44,968 bases of DNA from Polaromonas sp. (GTDB lineage Bacteria; Pseudomonadota; Gammaproteobacteria; Burkholderiales; Burkholderiaceae_C), in assembly GCA_025363315.1 (NCBI GenBank), contig JANYED010000269.1:1-44968 (forward strand), given 5' to 3'. The notes beneath the pieces were generated by a model, which saw nothing but the letters and a program-made list of their open reading frames with translations, made no database searches and was not told the origin of the DNA. Made by a program: the position numbers and the translations under genes. Below are positions 8,854 to 43,277 of this stretch, one piece after another; the first letter of the stretch is position 1, and each line of letters opens with the position of its first letter.

Positions 8854-8888
8854 GATAAGTCTACGCAGTCAACCGCTATTAAATGAGG

Positions 8889-8929
8889 AGCTGCTTGCGC
8901 CCGTATTGATTGGTTTACAGGCTGATTTA
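8889..8929 (+). repeat. Family-1 dispersed repeat core, copy A
   Basis: AGCTGCTTGCGCCCGTATTGATTGGTTTACAGGCTGATTTA; aligns without gaps to copies B-F. Confidence 0.82.
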
Positions 8930-9034
8930 CCACTTTTTAAGCCATTTTTAGCGACTTTCCGCAGAGCTGTCCAGCTGGATCACGTCGTGCTTAACCGAAA
9001 CCGAGCCAAGCCCGGTCCAGCTAACATTCTGCCC

Positions 9035-11067: not shown

Positions 11068-11937
11068 TTAAAGCTGCGCTGCGTAACTGGCAGCAATGCC
11101 CGCAAACACGGTGAACCCGAGCCAATGGTTCAGCCTGAACGCCTTGAAGCAGTCGTCTCGCTGGCGCTGCCGGATCAGCCAGACATGCCAGGCAGCTTGC
11201 ACCGCCGCAAGGCCAATTGCTCCTAAATAAATAGCTGTTTGCGCCCGATTTAATTGGGCTGCAAGCACATTTAGCCATACAAACAGGTATAAAACATAGC
11301 TTAGCAACACTGCGGCCACGTCAAACCGGCCAAAGGTGATGGCCGAGGTTTTCATACCGATTTTCAAGTCGTCGTCGCGGTCGACCATCGCGTATTCAGT
11401 GTCGTACGCGATCACCCAGAACAGATTGCCAAGCAGCAATACCCAGGCGATAGCTGGCACGCGCGACTGCACGGCAGCAAATGCCATGGGTATGCCAAAG
11501 CTGAAGGCCACACCCAGCACCGCCTGCGGCATGGCCACATAACGCTTGGCAAACGGGTAAATGATGGCAACGGCCAAAGCGGCAAATGACCAGCCAATGG
11601 CGGTGCTGTTGGTGGTCAGCACCAGGCCAAAAGCAATGAGTGCCAGCACCGCACCCACGGCCAGCGCCTCTTTGGCTGGCAGCTTGCCGCTAGTCACCGG
11701 CCGCTGGGCTGTACGCTTGACGTGCCGGTCAAAGTCACGATCGGCCACGTCGTTCAGGCAGCAGCCTGCGCTGCGCATCAGGAAAGTACCCAAGGTAAAA
11801 ACAACCAGCAAATGCCAGCCAGGAAATCCGTGCGACGCCAGCCACAGCGCCGACAGCGTGGGCCACAACAGCAGCAGCCAACCCGCTGGGCGGCTCCAGC
11901 GGATAAGCTGGAGGTAAAGGGTCAGTCTGCTTTTCAC
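11068..11937 (-). CDS. ubiA: 4-hydroxybenzoate octaprenyltransferase
   Basis: [32 protein letters not shown] and [24 protein letters not shown] match UbiA motifs. GTG start overlaps the yhaV stop (GTGA). Confidence 0.96.
11233..11273 (+). repeat. Family-1 dispersed repeat core, copy B, inside the ubiA coding sequence
   Basis: AGCTGTTTGCGCCCGATTTAATTGGGCTGCAAGCACATTTA; 33/41 identical to copy D by hand count. Confidence 0.78.
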
Positions 11938-15148: not shown

Positions 15149-15179
15149 GAGACAGATTTCTAGTTACTATTGATTTTAT

Positions 15180-15220
15180 AGCTGCTTACGCCCGTATTTA
15201 TTGGGCTAGAGGCCAATTTA
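15180..15220 (+). repeat. Family-1 dispersed repeat core, copy C
   Basis: AGCTGCTTACGCCCGTATTTATTGGGCTAGAGGCCAATTTA, between the SDR and DUF3833 genes. Confidence 0.85.
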
Positions 15221-15260
15221 ATATCTGAAATGGGCAAAATGACCCGGAACAGCCTGTTTT

Positions 15261-17091: not shown

Positions 17092-17652
17092 TTAAGCGGC
17101 CCCGGCCAGCAGCGCAGCGCGCAGCTTGGGTTCTGATGTTTTGGGCGACAACCAGATACCAAAAAACAGGCGGGCGAATTCAAGGTCACGAATTTCGCCC
17201 GACGCTTTGCCGTTAACCAGAAATTGTGCGCCTGCACCGGGCCGGTTGATACCCATGATGCGGTCACCTTTTTTGATGTCGGGTATGACTCGCAGCATGT
17301 CCGTTATCCAGGCATTGGCCTGTTCTTCGCTGATCGTTGCCGCGCGCCGCATTTCTTTGATAGAGCGCTCTGCGGTGTCCTTGCCGCTGAAGTCGCGCAG
17401 GTAGGCCAGCTCAAGTCCAAATGGCTGGGCGGCCAGGTTGTCAGGTTTAAAGCCTGGCAAAGCCCACAGCCGTGCGTCATACACCTGAAAACCCCACACA
17501 GTTAGCCGGCCTTTGCCAATCAGGCGGTTCTGCGGCAGCACTGCATTGAGTTCGGCCCGGACGTCATCTGCGCTGGGGGTGGTTTCCGCCCAGCCTGGAC
17601 GAGCCAGAGCGGCACACAGCAGGCCGGTCATCCATGTGCGCCGCGCAATCAT
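17092..17652 (-). CDS. Chalcone isomerase-like family protein, exported
   Basis: Start trimmed to MIARRTWMTGLLCAALARPGWAE; body LTVWGFQVYDARLWALPGF..LELAYLRDFSGKDTAERSIKEMRR. ATGA overlap with the upstream methyltransferase stop. Confidence 0.82.
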   Translation of the reverse strand: MIARRTWMTGLLCAALARPGWAETTPSADDVRAELNAVLPQNRLIGKGRLTVWGFQVYDARLWALPGFKPDNLAAQPFGLELAYLRDFSGKDTAERSIKEMRRAATISEEQANAWITDMLRVIPDIKKGDRIMGINRPGAGAQFLVNGKASGEIRDLEFARLFFGIWLSPKTSEPKLRAALLAGAA

Positions 17653-18971
17653 GCGGGCTTTCTCAAGGTGTACTGCACGACGTCGGTGTTGGCTTCTAAA
17701 AACGCCGCTTCGCAATAGCTCAGATAAAACTCCCAGATGCGAATGAACCGTTCGTCGAACCCGAGCTGCAGCACATGCGCCTTTTGCGCTGCAAACTGTT
17801 CGTGCCACAGTTGCAGGGTGCGGGCATAGTCCTGGCCAAAAGAAAACTCGTCCACCACCTGCAACCCGGCCTTGGCGGCTTGCGCGCGGAATTCTTTCGG
17901 GCAAGGCAGACAACCACCGGGGAAGACATATTGCTGAATGAAGTCAGTCGATGTGAGGTAGCGCTCAAACAGTTCGTCAGCAATCACAATGCTTTGAATG
18001 CAGGCGAGGCCGCCGGGCTTGAGCAAACGCGCAACCGTTTGAAAATACTCGGGCCAGTATTCACGGCCCACGGCTTCGACCATTTCAATCGAGCAAATGG
18101 CGTCAAAGGGTTCGTCGGCAGTTGTTTTGCCGATGTCGCGGTAGTCCTGCAAGCGCAAATCACAAATTGGTGCCCCCACGCTTGTCGCTTCGCGTACTGC
18201 GCTGCCCCCCGAGAGGGCTGTCGCGTCTAGGGGCGGCCCGTCGCCGCGCTTCAGCACACCTTCGCGCTGCATCCGCTTGTTCGCCCATTCGAGCTGCTCT
18301 GTGCTGAGCGTCACACCCACAACATTGGCACCAAATTCCTGGGTGGCTTTTTCAGCCAGCGCGCCCCAGCCGCAGCCAATCTCGAGCACACGGTCGCCGG
18401 GCTTGACTTGCGTCATGCGCAGCGCACGCCGCACCTTGGCGTGCTGGGCGTCCTTCATCGAGGTCTCAGGCGTTTCAAAAATGGCTGATGAGTAGTTCAT
18501 CGTGCCATCCAGCCAGAGTTCATAAAACGCGTTGCCCAAGTCGTAATGCGCGTGGATGTTTTTCTGGCTGTTGGCCTTGGTGTTGCGATTGAGCAAATGC
18601 TTAATACGGTAGGCAAACCGGCCCAGCCAGGTGCCGTAAATCACGTCTTCGACTTCTTTGCGGTTGACGATGAGGACCTGCAGCAAGTCTGTCAAATGCG
18701 GTGTGGTCCAGTCGCCCGCAATATAGCTTTCAGCAAAGCCGATATCGCCTGACTTCAAGGCGGCGCTGCACACATTCCAGTTCAGCAAGTGCAAGCTGGC
18801 CTGCGGTGTTTGTCCATTGCCGAATCGCTGCACTGAACCATCTGGAAGCTTGAGCGTGAGCGTGCCATGCTTTAAGCGCAGCAGCAGCTTGAGCGTGGCG
18901 CGCGCGGCGGATGGCGCACCGGCGGGCAATGGAAAAGCGGGGTTGTTGGTGGTGGTGTTGCTGGTGGTCAT
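17649..18971 (-). CDS. Cyclopropane-fatty-acid-synthase-family SAM-dependent methyltransferase with an extra in-frame segment
   Basis: NAFYELWLDGTMNYSSAIFE, VLEIGCGWGALAEKATQEFGANVVGVTLSTEQLEWA, LQDYRD, SIEMVEAVGREYWPEYF; extra segment LKRGDGPPLDATALSGGSAVREATSVGAPI. Confidence 0.92.
   Translation of the reverse strand: MTTSNTTTNNPAFPLPAGAPSAARATLKLLLRLKHGTLTLKLPDGSVQRFGNGQTPQASLHLLNWNVCSAALKSGDIGFAESYIAGDWTTPHLTDLLQVLIVNRKEVEDVIYGTWLGRFAYRIKHLLNRNTKANSQKNIHAHYDLGNAFYELWLDGTMNYSSAIFETPETSMKDAQHAKVRRALRMTQVKPGDRVLEIGCGWGALAEKATQEFGANVVGVTLSTEQLEWANKRMQREGVLKRGDGPPLDATALSGGSAVREATSVGAPICDLRLQDYRDIGKTTADEPFDAICSIEMVEAVGREYWPEYFQTVARLLKPGGLACIQSIVIADELFERYLTSTDFIQQYVFPGGCLPCPKEFRAQAAKAGLQVVDEFSFGQDYARTLQLWHEQFAAQKAHVLQLGFDERFIRIWEFYLSYCEAAFLEANTDVVQYTLRKPA
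18171..18243 (+). repeat. Family-2 GC-rich dispersed repeat, copy 1, inside the CFA-like methyltransferase CDS
   Basis: tgcccccacgcttgtcgcttcgcgtactgcgctgccccccgagagggctgtcgcgtctaggggcggcccgtcg; aligns with 33206-33279 and contains a GCCC..GGGC hairpin. Confidence 0.72.
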
Positions 18972-29387: not shown

Positions 29388-29419
29388 AAAAGTGATTTCC
29401 TATACGCTATGTAATTAGT

Positions 29420-29460
29420 AGCTGCTCGCGCCCGAATTCATTGGGCTACAGGCTTATTTA
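29420..29460 (+). repeat. Family-1 dispersed repeat core, copy D
   Basis: AGCTGCTCGCGCCCGAATTCATTGGGCTACAGGCTTATTTA, between the RND permease and membrane-fusion genes. Confidence 0.85.
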
Positions 29461-29511
29461 ATAGGTAAAAGCGGTCTCCGGGAGGTTTGGCGGCTGTTGG
29501 CGTGTTCCGCG

Positions 29512-30678
29512 CTATTTCGGGGTTTGCGGCGCACTCGCAGCGCTGGCGGCCGCCACCACCACCACCTTCACGCTGTCGCCATCGGTCAGAAAAGCAGCGC
29601 CACTGGCCACAAACTGCTCACCCGGCTTGGCCCCCTGCAGGATTTCGACCACATCGCCGACGCGCCGCCCGGTTTGCAGCTTGATCTGGCTGATTTTGTT
29701 GCCGGGCGCAAGCCGCATGGCGTAAGTAAAGCCGTCGCGCAGCACCAGTGCCTGCTGCGGCAGGCTCAGCACATTGCTGGCACCGCCGTCAAACTCACCC
29801 CGGGCAAACATGCCGGCCTTGATGTTGGCGTTGGCTGGCAGGTCGACGTAAATCAACGCGTTGCGTGTCACGCTGTCAACCGTCGGGGCAATCATGCGCA
29901 CCTTGCCCACCACCTGCGCGCCGCTGGCCGCCGTAACGGTGGCCAGCGCGCCGGGTTTAATGCCGACCAGCTCAGTGCTGGTGACTTCAGCCCGCCATTC
30001 CAGCCTGCCAGCACGAATCATTTTGAACAGTTCTGTGCCACTGCCCACCACCGCGCCAAGCGTGGCGCTGCGGCTGGAGATCACGCCGGCGTCGGGCGCC
30101 AACACCGCGGTTTGCTTCAGGCGCACCTGCTGCACGGCCAGCGCGGCTTTGGCCACCTCGAGCCGGGCCTTGGCGGTTTTGTCCTGCGTCAGGTACTGGG
30201 CGATTTGCTGGTCGCTCAACGCGCCGCTGGCTTGTAGCGTGCGCGCTTTGTCCGCGTTCACGGCGGCATCCAGGGCGTTGGCCTGGGCCTCTGAAAAGCT
30301 GGCCCGGGCCTGCGCGACTTCAGCACTGACCTGCTCGGTGCTGAAGGTGGCCAGCACCTGGCCTTTAGCCACCCGGTCACCGACATTGACTTTGACATCC
30401 ACCAGCCGCAGGCCACTGGCTTCGCTGCCGATGATGGCCTCCTGCCAGGCGCTGATGCTGCCGTTGGCGGCCAGCCTGATGAGCAGGCTGGTCATTTGCG
30501 GCATGACGGTGGTGACCGTCAGCGCAGGTTTGGTTGCTACCGGCTTTTTTTCGTCTGCAGCCCTCGATTGAGAAGCAAAAAGACCTGCAGTCCAATAAAA
30601 CAGGGCGCAAGCAGCTACTAACATAATAGCGTAGAGAGCGGTAAGACCCGAGCGGCGTGAGCGTTGAAAAGGGTTCAT
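29512..30678 (-). CDS. RND efflux periplasmic adaptor (membrane-fusion protein)
   Basis: GLRLVDVKVNVGDRVAKGQVLATFSTEQVSAEVAQARASFSEAQ lipoyl/hairpin region; upstream of the RND permease. Confidence 0.94.
   Translation of the reverse strand: MNPFQRSRRSGLTALYAIMLVAACALFYWTAGLFASQSRAADEKKPVATKPALTVTTVMPQMTSLLIRLAANGSISAWQEAIIGSEASGLRLVDVKVNVGDRVAKGQVLATFSTEQVSAEVAQARASFSEAQANALDAAVNADKARTLQASGALSDQQIAQYLTQDKTAKARLEVAKAALAVQQVRLKQTAVLAPDAGVISSRSATLGAVVGSGTELFKMIRAGRLEWRAEVTSTELVGIKPGALATVTAASGAQVVGKVRMIAPTVDSVTRNALIYVDLPANANIKAGMFARGEFDGGASNVLSLPQQALVLRDGFTYAMRLAPGNKISQIKLQTGRRVGDVVEILQGAKPGEQFVASGAAFLTDGDSVKVVVVAAASAASAPQTPK
30576..30616 (-). repeat. Family-1 dispersed repeat core, copy E, inside the membrane-fusion protein CDS
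   Basis: Reverse strand AGCTGCTTGCGCCCTGTTTTATTGGACTGCAGGTCTTTTTG; 30/41 identical to copy D by hand count, and the upstream flanks ACGCTAT-N4-TTAGT also match D without gaps. Confidence 0.7.
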
Positions 30679-32423: not shown

Positions 32424-35279
32424 TCAGTGCCGAAAAACCGCCGTCCACAGCGCGGTAATGGCATCACGCTCTGCCGCCAGCACATCGGGTGCAACTTGGG
32501 TGGGCGCTTCGTTCAAGCGCGCCTGATGCTGCACCCGGCGTAGTGCGCGGTAAGCCATCGCAGCGGCCTGACCAACGCCAGGCGGCAGCAAGCCCACGGC
32601 TTCAGCGCGTTGCAGCAAGGCAATATTGCCAACGTTGGCCATCAGCTCAGGGTGCGCCGCTGACTGGGCCAGCACCAGATATTGCACGGCAAATTCGGCG
32701 TCGACCATGCCGCCCACGCTGTGCTTGACGTCAAATACCGCGCCTTTGATGGGGTGTGCGGCCCGCACCTTGCCCCGCATGGCGACGATCTCCGTGCGCA
32801 GCAGCGCGGCATCGCGTGGCGCGGTGATAACGCCTTCACGGATTTTTTCGAATTGCTGGCGCAGCGGCTCGACACCCAACACAAATCTTGCTCTGGTCAT
32901 GGCCTGGTGCTCCCAGGTCCAGGCGGTGTTGCTGCCGCGCTGCTGCTGGTATTTTGCGTATGCCTCAAAACTCGTGACCAGCAAACCCGAATTTCCGTTC
33001 GGGCGCAAAGCGGTGTCAATCTCAAATAAATCACCCTCGCTGGTCTTGACGGTCAACCAGTTGATGAGCTTGCGCACCAGCGCGGCATACACCTCGGCGG
33101 CCTGTTCGTGCTCGTCTTCGTACACAAACACAATGTCCAGGTCACTGCCATAACCCAACTCTTTGCCGCCCAATTTGCCATACGCAATGATGGCCAAAAG
33201 GGGCTGGCCTCCACGTTCGTTCCCTTCGCATAACTCTTTGCCCCCTGAGGGGGCTAATTTTTCTGCGGGCAGCCCGTCGAAAAATTGCCCTTCCCCTTCG
33301 GGTATGTGTTTGTTTTTAAGCCGCTGCCAGCACCAGTCGAGCGTGATGGCCAGCGTGCTTTCAGCCAGGGCACTCAGGTCGTCAGCCACCTGCTCGACGC
33401 TCAGCACGCCTTCTACGTCGCGCGCCAGAGTGCGAAACACCTCGGCGTGGTGCGCGCGGCGCAGCAAGTTAAGGCAGGTTTCTTCGTCGTCCTCGCCGGT
33501 GTGCCTGAGCGACGCGAGCCGCAGTTTGAGCTCTTGCGCAAAGCTAACCGGATCAAAGCGCTCGTGCAACATCTGCTCACTGGCCAGCTCGTCGATCACG
33601 CCAGGATGCTGCAAGAGGTAGCGCGCGGGCCATTTGGCAGCGCCCAGCAGCCGCAGCAGCCGCAGGTGGACCTGCGGGCGCTCCAGCAACAAGGCCAGGT
33701 AGCTTTCGCGCCTGAGCAGCGGCTCTATCCAGTCCATGATGCGCAGGGCGGCGTCCTCGCTCACGCTGCCGCCCTCCAACCACTGCGCGGTGCGCTGCAC
33801 GAGCTGGCTCAGTCGTGCGCGCGCGTCGTCCCGCAGCCCCAGCACCTTGGGGTGGGTGCGCCACTGTTGTAAACGGAGCCGAAACTGCCCCGGCCACTGC
33901 TGGGCCAAATGGTCCAACAGCGTGTCCAGTGGTTCAATGCCCATCGGAGTCTTGCCGCAGCCCTTGCAGTCGGGCTTGCTGCCCAGCAATTTGTCAAACT
34001 CCTGGGCCACCAGCTCGCGGTGGGTGTCCAGATCATGCAAAAACGGACGGCAGTCCGGGTAGCCTAAGGTGTGTGCAATCCAGGCCAGGTCATCGTCGCG
34101 GGTTGGCAACGCGTGGGTTTGTTGGTCGTCCAGGTACTGGATGCGGTGCTCCACACGGCGCAAAAAATCATACGCCGCAGCCATCGCGTCGGCTGTTGTT
34201 TGCGGCATCAGCCCCGCCTTGGCCAGACGCTGCAGAGCATCGACCGTGCGGCGCGTGCGCAGCTCAGGGAACTGCCCGCCGCGCACCACCTGCAGCAACT
34301 GCACGGTAAATTCAATTTCACGAATGCCGCCGCGCGACATCTTCACGTCGTTGGCGCGCTCCGGTCGGCCAGCGCTGCGCCGAGCGGCGTGCTCACGGAT
34401 CTGCCGGTGCAACACACGCAGCGCATCAAAGACGCTGTAGTCCAAATAGCGCCTGAAGACAAATGGCAACACCACACTGCGCAACGCCAGCGCCGAGCCG
34501 TTTTGAACGCACACCTGCGGCGCCACCACCCGGCTTTTTAGCCACGCAAAGCGCTCCCACTCGCGGCCCTGGGCCTGAAAGTAATCCTCCAGCGCCGACA
34601 GCGACATCGCCGCCGGCCCCGAGCCGCCATGCGGCCGGAGCGCCAGGTCGAGGCGAAACACAAACCCATGCTCGGTGGTTTCGCCAATCAGCGCGTAAAT
34701 CGCCTTGACCTGTTGCGCAAAATATTCGTGGTTTGAAATCGCGTTACGCCGGACAGTTCCGTCATCCACCCGACCTGCGGTTTGCCCGTCATGGTCGTAA
34801 ACGTAAATCAAATCGATGTCGCTGGACACGTTCAACTCGCGCGCACCCAGCTTGCCCATGCCAACCACCCACATCTGCGCGCGCGAGCCGTCGGGTGTCA
34901 TCGGCTGGCCATAAGCGGCATCCAGCCCGATTTGTGATTCGCACATCGCCACGTCGAGCGCCAGCTCAGCCAGCTCGGTCATGGCCTGGGTTATGACTGA
35001 CAGCGCGGCCTGTTCGGCTGGCACCCCGTCGCAGTCAAGCACCACCAGACGCTCCAGCACCAGCTGACGCAGCACGCGCAAAGCCGCACTGGTGTCCAGG
35101 CCAGTGCGCCGCAATGCCTGCAAAGCCGCCTGCATGTTGGCTCGCAAGGGTGCACCCGGCGCAAGCAGCGGCAGTTGCGCCGCATAGCGACGGCGGATCC
35201 GCTGCACATACCGCGAATAGTCCGGCGGGGCCACGGTTTCGGCCCGAGCGTCATCAGAAATTTCTGGCGTCAACGGCAT
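32424..35279 (-). CDS. glnE: Bifunctional glutamine synthetase adenylyltransferase/deadenylyltransferase with an extra in-frame segment
   Basis: VVGMGKLGARELNVSSDIDLIYVY (N domain), IIAYGKLGGKELGYGSDLDIVFVYEDE (C domain); extra segment between WCWQRL and the C-domain motif. Confidence 0.95.
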   Translation of the reverse strand: MPLTPEISDDARAETVAPPDYSRYVQRIRRRYAAQLPLLAPGAPLRANMQAALQALRRTGLDTSAALRVLRQLVLERLVVLDCDGVPAEQAALSVITQAMTELAELALDVAMCESQIGLDAAYGQPMTPDGSRAQMWVVGMGKLGARELNVSSDIDLIYVYDHDGQTAGRVDDGTVRRNAISNHEYFAQQVKAIYALIGETTEHGFVFRLDLALRPHGGSGPAAMSLSALEDYFQAQGREWERFAWLKSRVVAPQVCVQNGSALALRSVVLPFVFRRYLDYSVFDALRVLHRQIREHAARRSAGRPERANDVKMSRGGIREIEFTVQLLQVVRGGQFPELRTRRTVDALQRLAKAGLMPQTTADAMAAAYDFLRRVEHRIQYLDDQQTHALPTRDDDLAWIAHTLGYPDCRPFLHDLDTHRELVAQEFDKLLGSKPDCKGCGKTPMGIEPLDTLLDHLAQQWPGQFRLRLQQWRTHPKVLGLRDDARARLSQLVQRTAQWLEGGSVSEDAALRIMDWIEPLLRRESYLALLLERPQVHLRLLRLLGAAKWPARYLLQHPGVIDELASEQMLHERFDPVSFAQELKLRLASLRHTGEDDEETCLNLLRRAHHAEVFRTLARDVEGVLSVEQVADDLSALAESTLAITLDWCWQRLKNKHIPEGEGQFFDGLPAEKLAPSGGKELCEGNERGGQPLLAIIAYGKLGGKELGYGSDLDIVFVYEDEHEQAAEVYAALVRKLINWLTVKTSEGDLFEIDTALRPNGNSGLLVTSFEAYAKYQQQRGSNTAWTWEHQAMTRARFVLGVEPLRQQFEKIREGVITAPRDAALLRTEIVAMRGKVRAAHPIKGAVFDVKHSVGGMVDAEFAVQYLVLAQSAAHPELMANVGNIALLQRAEAVGLLPPGVGQAAAMAYRALRRVQHQARLNEAPTQVAPDVLAAERDAITALWTAVFRH
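33206..33279 (+). repeat. Family-2 GC-rich dispersed repeat, copy 2, inside the glnE CDS
   Basis: ggcctccacgttcgttcccttcgcataactctttgccccctgagggggctaatttttctgcgggcagcccgtcg; perfect hairpin GCCCCC-TGA-GGGGGC at 33240-33254. Confidence 0.7.
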
Positions 35280-43188: not shown

Positions 43189-43218
43189 TTGGCTGGTTTT
43201 ATTTGCTATATATTTATG

Positions 43219-43259
43219 AGCTGCTAGCGCCCGTATTCATTGGGCTACAGCCTTATATA
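43219..43259 (+). repeat. Family-1 dispersed repeat core, copy F
   Basis: AGCTGCTAGCGCCCGTATTCATTGGGCTACAGCCTTATATA, in the convergent intergenic gap after the response regulator. Confidence 0.85.
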
Positions 43260-43277
43260 ACTCCTACAAGCGTTTTT

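Follow-up and report, generated by a model that had tools for sequence, protein, structure and literature searches.

A structured DNA repeat lies in frame within a CFA-family methyltransferase gene and unrelated genes of Polaromonas

The Betaproteobacterial Repeat Element (BRE) is described, in the available portion of Hot et al. 2011 (PMC3110155), as a high-GC repeat of ~90 bp (75-91 bp) that occurs in Polaromonas, Rhodoferax, Acidovorax, and Azoarcus, with Polaromonas JS666 the richest (29 copies), forms tandem arrays, and has some copies wholly within coding sequences. Rickettsia palindromic elements (RPEs) are small structured repeats found in frame in unrelated genes (reviewed in PMC2229807 and PMC10969869), and GTAG/CGTC-tagged REPs are palindromic repeats of 20-40 bp with a terminal tag, some of them inside genes (PMC3733652). 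With respect to Polaromonas MITEs, a review cites the Polaromonas JS666 genome paper, where the element analyzed here may have been described earlier.

The present repeat was studied in a window of 44,968 nucleotides (i.e., the whole stretch of DNA that was analyzed) from Polaromonas sp., which holds the following features:

17649..18971, minus strand: gene for a CFA/CMAS-family SAM-dependent methyltransferase (440 aa), the host of the insertion
18169..18252, minus strand: copy of the structured repeat, type A, 84 positions (covariance model R1, E 5e-13 in its own genome; one of the 12 copies from which R1 was built)
18165..18254, minus strand: insert peptide LKRGDGPPLDATALSGGSAVREATSVGAPI, residues 240-269 (orthologue alignment and DNA)
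33204..33288, minus strand: second copy in the window (R1, E 2.6e-6), in frame in glnE (GlnE adenylyltransferase; open frame and Pfam)

The element is very probably a BRE, matched by description and not letter by letter. It shares with BRE, as that source describes it, its length, high GC, taxa, tandem arrays, and presence in coding sequences: the 84-position model fits a GC-rich repeat of ~75-91 bp in Betaproteobacteria, and tandem arrays with periods of 84 and 81 nt occur in genome G005. In contrast, the available portion of PMC3110155 describes BRE without reference to a structure, to reading frames, to empty sites, or to recurrence; within the literature searched, these aspects (a conserved structure, the evidence on frame, sites that are empty in relatives, and repeated use of a single loop) appear to be new. 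Compared by description, the element resembles RPEs in lying in frame in unrelated protein genes and being absent from orthologues (13 genes in its own genome; eight empty sites and one scar), and differs from them in its host group, which does not consist of intracellular symbionts, and in its use of several frames and both strands; since the latter is incompatible with a conserved element-encoded peptide, membership in the RPEs was rejected. It likewise resembles REPs in being palindromic and within some genes, but it was not classed with them, as it is ~84 nt long, multi-hairpin, and two-domain, with consensus ends that carry no tag. By analogy, it is best read as behaving in an RPE-like manner in Burkholderiales.

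Structure and distribution of the repeat

The original prediction placed a repeat at 18171-18243 and called it a GC-rich hairpin element recurrent in Comamonadaceae intergenic DNA. Its location was right and its extent slightly short of the covariance-model match (18169-18252). The CFA copy, of type A, consists of a variable-stem 5' hairpin around GGGCCGCCCC, followed by a GCCCCC...GGGGGC stem that encloses a ACGCGAAGCG hairpin, and the GC fraction of 78 copies ranges from 0.57 to 0.78. Across these copies, 96.6% of the cells at 23 model pairs are paired, compared with 83.9% in shuffles and at most 62% in slid-partner controls, and 221 cells are changed on both sides (60 in shuffles), figures that come from an alignment fitted to the covariance model and hence biased towards the model pairs. 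Both-sided changes affect each of the seven 5'-stem pairs and three of the five inner-hairpin pairs. An alignment of 12 copies made without regard to structure already contained 12 pairs with such changes. The structure of the element is thus kept across the 78 copies by strong compensatory change. Folded alone, the CFA copy was no better than its shuffles (z 0.27 as RNA and 0.10 as DNA). We therefore retain the hairpin because of covariation between copies and drop the claim of stability for this single copy. The element matches no Rfam family. Frames free of stops are about as frequent in the element as in shuffles, so that this openness looks like an effect of GC content rather than anything peculiar to the element.

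BLASTN of the region against its own genome (an assembly of 386 contigs) revealed 21 other copies at E<1e-4, and the covariance model found 33 at E<1e-3; for comparison, a 20-base piece with 3 mismatches allowed is expected 0.01 times per window. At E<=0.1, the model found at least 87 to 151 copies in each of five related genomes, and at least one copy is present in 83 of the 87 genomes of the genus. Matches were also obtained in Variovorax, Acidovorax, Rhodoferax, Azoarcus, Burkholderia, and Paraburkholderia, and none in the phages and E. coli searched. Recurrence was accordingly borne out, and "Comamonadaceae intergenic DNA" proved too narrow, given the matches in Burkholderia, Paraburkholderia, and Azoarcus and the share of copies within genes (see below). 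A divergent copy underlies a Fic family protein encoded on a plasmid of Rhodoferax antarcticus (L277, 2501-2580). The window also hosts a different repeat family of ~73 nt, with direct copies at 8870-8942, 11214-11286, 15161-15233, 29401-29473, and 43200-43272 and one inverted copy at 30577-30636.

Copies within genes and their empty sites

In the genome itself, 13 of the 30 copies with loci lie in frame within genes recognizable by an open frame and a Pfam match, a combination that replaced codon usage, which was too noisy to classify copies as genic or intergenic. The host genes encode a biotin carboxylase, the CFA enzyme, AMP nucleosidase, M16 and M20 peptidases, HrpA, an N6 DNA methylase, an alpha/beta hydrolase, HemW, PrmA, an APH-family protein, a MoCF-domain protein, and GlnE. 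Because these copies were found via open frames, frame-breaking ones could be under-counted. Nine are in sense and four in antisense orientation relative to the element. In other genomes, copies were found in genes for CobQ, a phosphomannomutase-family protein, MoeA, PriA, GcvP, GlnD, an Edd-family dehydratase, AroA, and ThrC, some of these names being taken from sequence within the Pfam families found. Since different genes read the element in several frames and on both strands, it is the DNA and not the peptide that is conserved. In two genomes, the element occupies what is apparently one and the same glnD site (L235 and L257), one glnD contains three tandem units, and two genomes share an apparently identical site in an edd-type gene (L238 and L263).

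A comparison with the sister genome (G006) was possible for 12 of the 13 sites, the N6 methylase giving no usable match. Eight sites are empty in the sister, including that in CFA; three are shared (AMP nucleosidase, HemW, and APH, with a difference of 22 nt between the two genomes in the APH gene); and the M16 gene retains a 24-nt scar, with a net difference of 54 nt. At the eight empty sites, the net insertion measures 72, 81, 81, 81, 84, 87, 90, and 93 nt, all multiples of three, with glnE accounting for the 93 nt. No clear target-site duplication, which together with terminal inverted repeats would define a MITE, was seen in the eight pairs, whose flanks have diverged, and our searches returned no transposase, target-site duplication, or excised intermediate for the element.

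Repeated occupation of the CFA loop

The product of 17649-18971 is a lipid-modifying methyltransferase of the CFA/CMAS family. Pfam CMAS (PF02353) matches it at E 4e-82, in a match split at the insert, and its PDB relatives are CFA synthases both by sequence and by fold (best folds 5z9o, 7qos, and 6bqc). The Pfam and PDB matches leave a gap at approximately residues 236-272, between the helix that follows the SAM-binding motif and the LQDYRD strand. As originally described, the repeat forms an extra peptide here, and peptide and DNA both agree with that description. The expected surplus of about 30 residues over E. coli Cfa is +31 aa in the 6bqc alignment (36 residues between query positions 235 and 272, compared with 5 between chain positions 212 and 218); relative to the nearest relatives, which have no insert, the net gain is ~27 aa. 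The closest named orthologue (L031) reads GVAEQADLRLQDYRD, without the insert, which is also absent from the close relatives G079 and G091. The peptide is lacking in distant CFA homologues as well. The AF2 model places it in a loop between helix 224-236 and strand 269-274, with pLDDT below 50 for residues 245-264, a low confidence that partly reflects the few aligned insert sequences. The insert is best read as a tolerated, probably disordered surface loop whose DNA is a structured mobile element.

The element occurs in at least nine CFA orthologues, at one site and in one orientation and frame, and all nine inserts are stop-free with lengths that are multiples of three. Two of them (L074 and L055) are degenerate, and two others (L033 and G077) are nearly identical and may represent one event. 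The strong structure of the element could suggest that the insert is transcribed and then removed or skipped, by self-processing or ribosome bypassing, leaving a protein of normal length. Skipping would relax both the stop-free multiples of three in the nine inserts and the multiples of three at the eight empty sites, and we regard it as extremely improbable.

A tree of 81 orthologues, from which the insert columns were excluded, requires 8 state changes for the 8 inserts among the nine that it took in, 7 of them forced by starred branches, and rejects a single clade of carriers (p 4e-12), although it cannot tell gain from loss. On a careful tree, the seven inserts of the Polaromonas part need 7 changes. 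In addition, six of the nine CFA inserts have a non-CFA copy as their nearest match. Taken together, the 8 changes and the proximity of most inserts to copies elsewhere indicate that the same loop was hit repeatedly. The insert could instead be ancestral in the CFA subfamily and have been deleted many times: trees count changes without direction, and partial deletions do occur, as in the M16 scar of the sister and the 5'-arm remnant of the element in a Curvibacter CFA gene (L096). However, a single short GV-xxxx-DLRLQDY junction is common to the empty orthologues throughout Polaromonas and Acidovorax, and numerous independent deletions would not recreate it precisely; moreover, the CFA inserts belong to different element subtypes, mostly resembling copies elsewhere. 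We favor repeated gain over repeated loss for these reasons and consider an ancestral insert quite improbable. Shorter CFA expansions that are not recognizably the element occupy the same site in a separate clade (L048, L056-L059, L063, and L075).

The uniform orientation and frame of the nine CFA inserts, along with those unrelated expansions, would also be expected if selection had retained the peptide as a functional module (e.g., a regulatory or partner-binding loop of the enzyme). We find this improbable: other frames and the other strand are used in unrelated genes, most orthologues do without the insert, and the model assigns the loop the low confidence that disordered loops receive.

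The data show the identity of the repeat, the conservation of its structure, its absence from sisters, recurrent state changes on the tree, and in-frame lengths, from which we infer transposition, translation, and a near-neutral effect on the enzyme. In our assessment, it is highly probable that the insert derives from a non-autonomous structured repeat of ~84 nt that is, or recently was, mobile and is filtered by frame and loop tolerance, and that the CFA loop has captured this repeat several times. The element would copy itself to new genomic places, where intergenic copies would survive freely and in-gene copies would survive if their net length is a multiple of three, they contain no stop, and they fall in a tolerant, probably surface, loop. 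Surviving in-gene copies would be translated as low-complexity, probably disordered loops, and the CFA loop may be permissive enough to have captured the element on independent occasions. A target preference of the element for core-gene sites, in DNA or in the nascent transcript, by which identical loops, in CFA and apparently also in GlnD and Edd, would be re-hit across genera, is conceivable but doubtful; if true, it would amount to an ongoing natural experiment on the insertion of loops.

With occupied and empty sites available in close relatives, the mechanism of mobility and the cost of insertion become directly testable. The findings also serve as a warning that proteins annotated in these genera include loops derived from repeats. 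More broadly, our data indicate that colonization of housekeeping genes in frame by a small structured repeat, most familiar from Rickettsia, is common in environmental Burkholderiales too.
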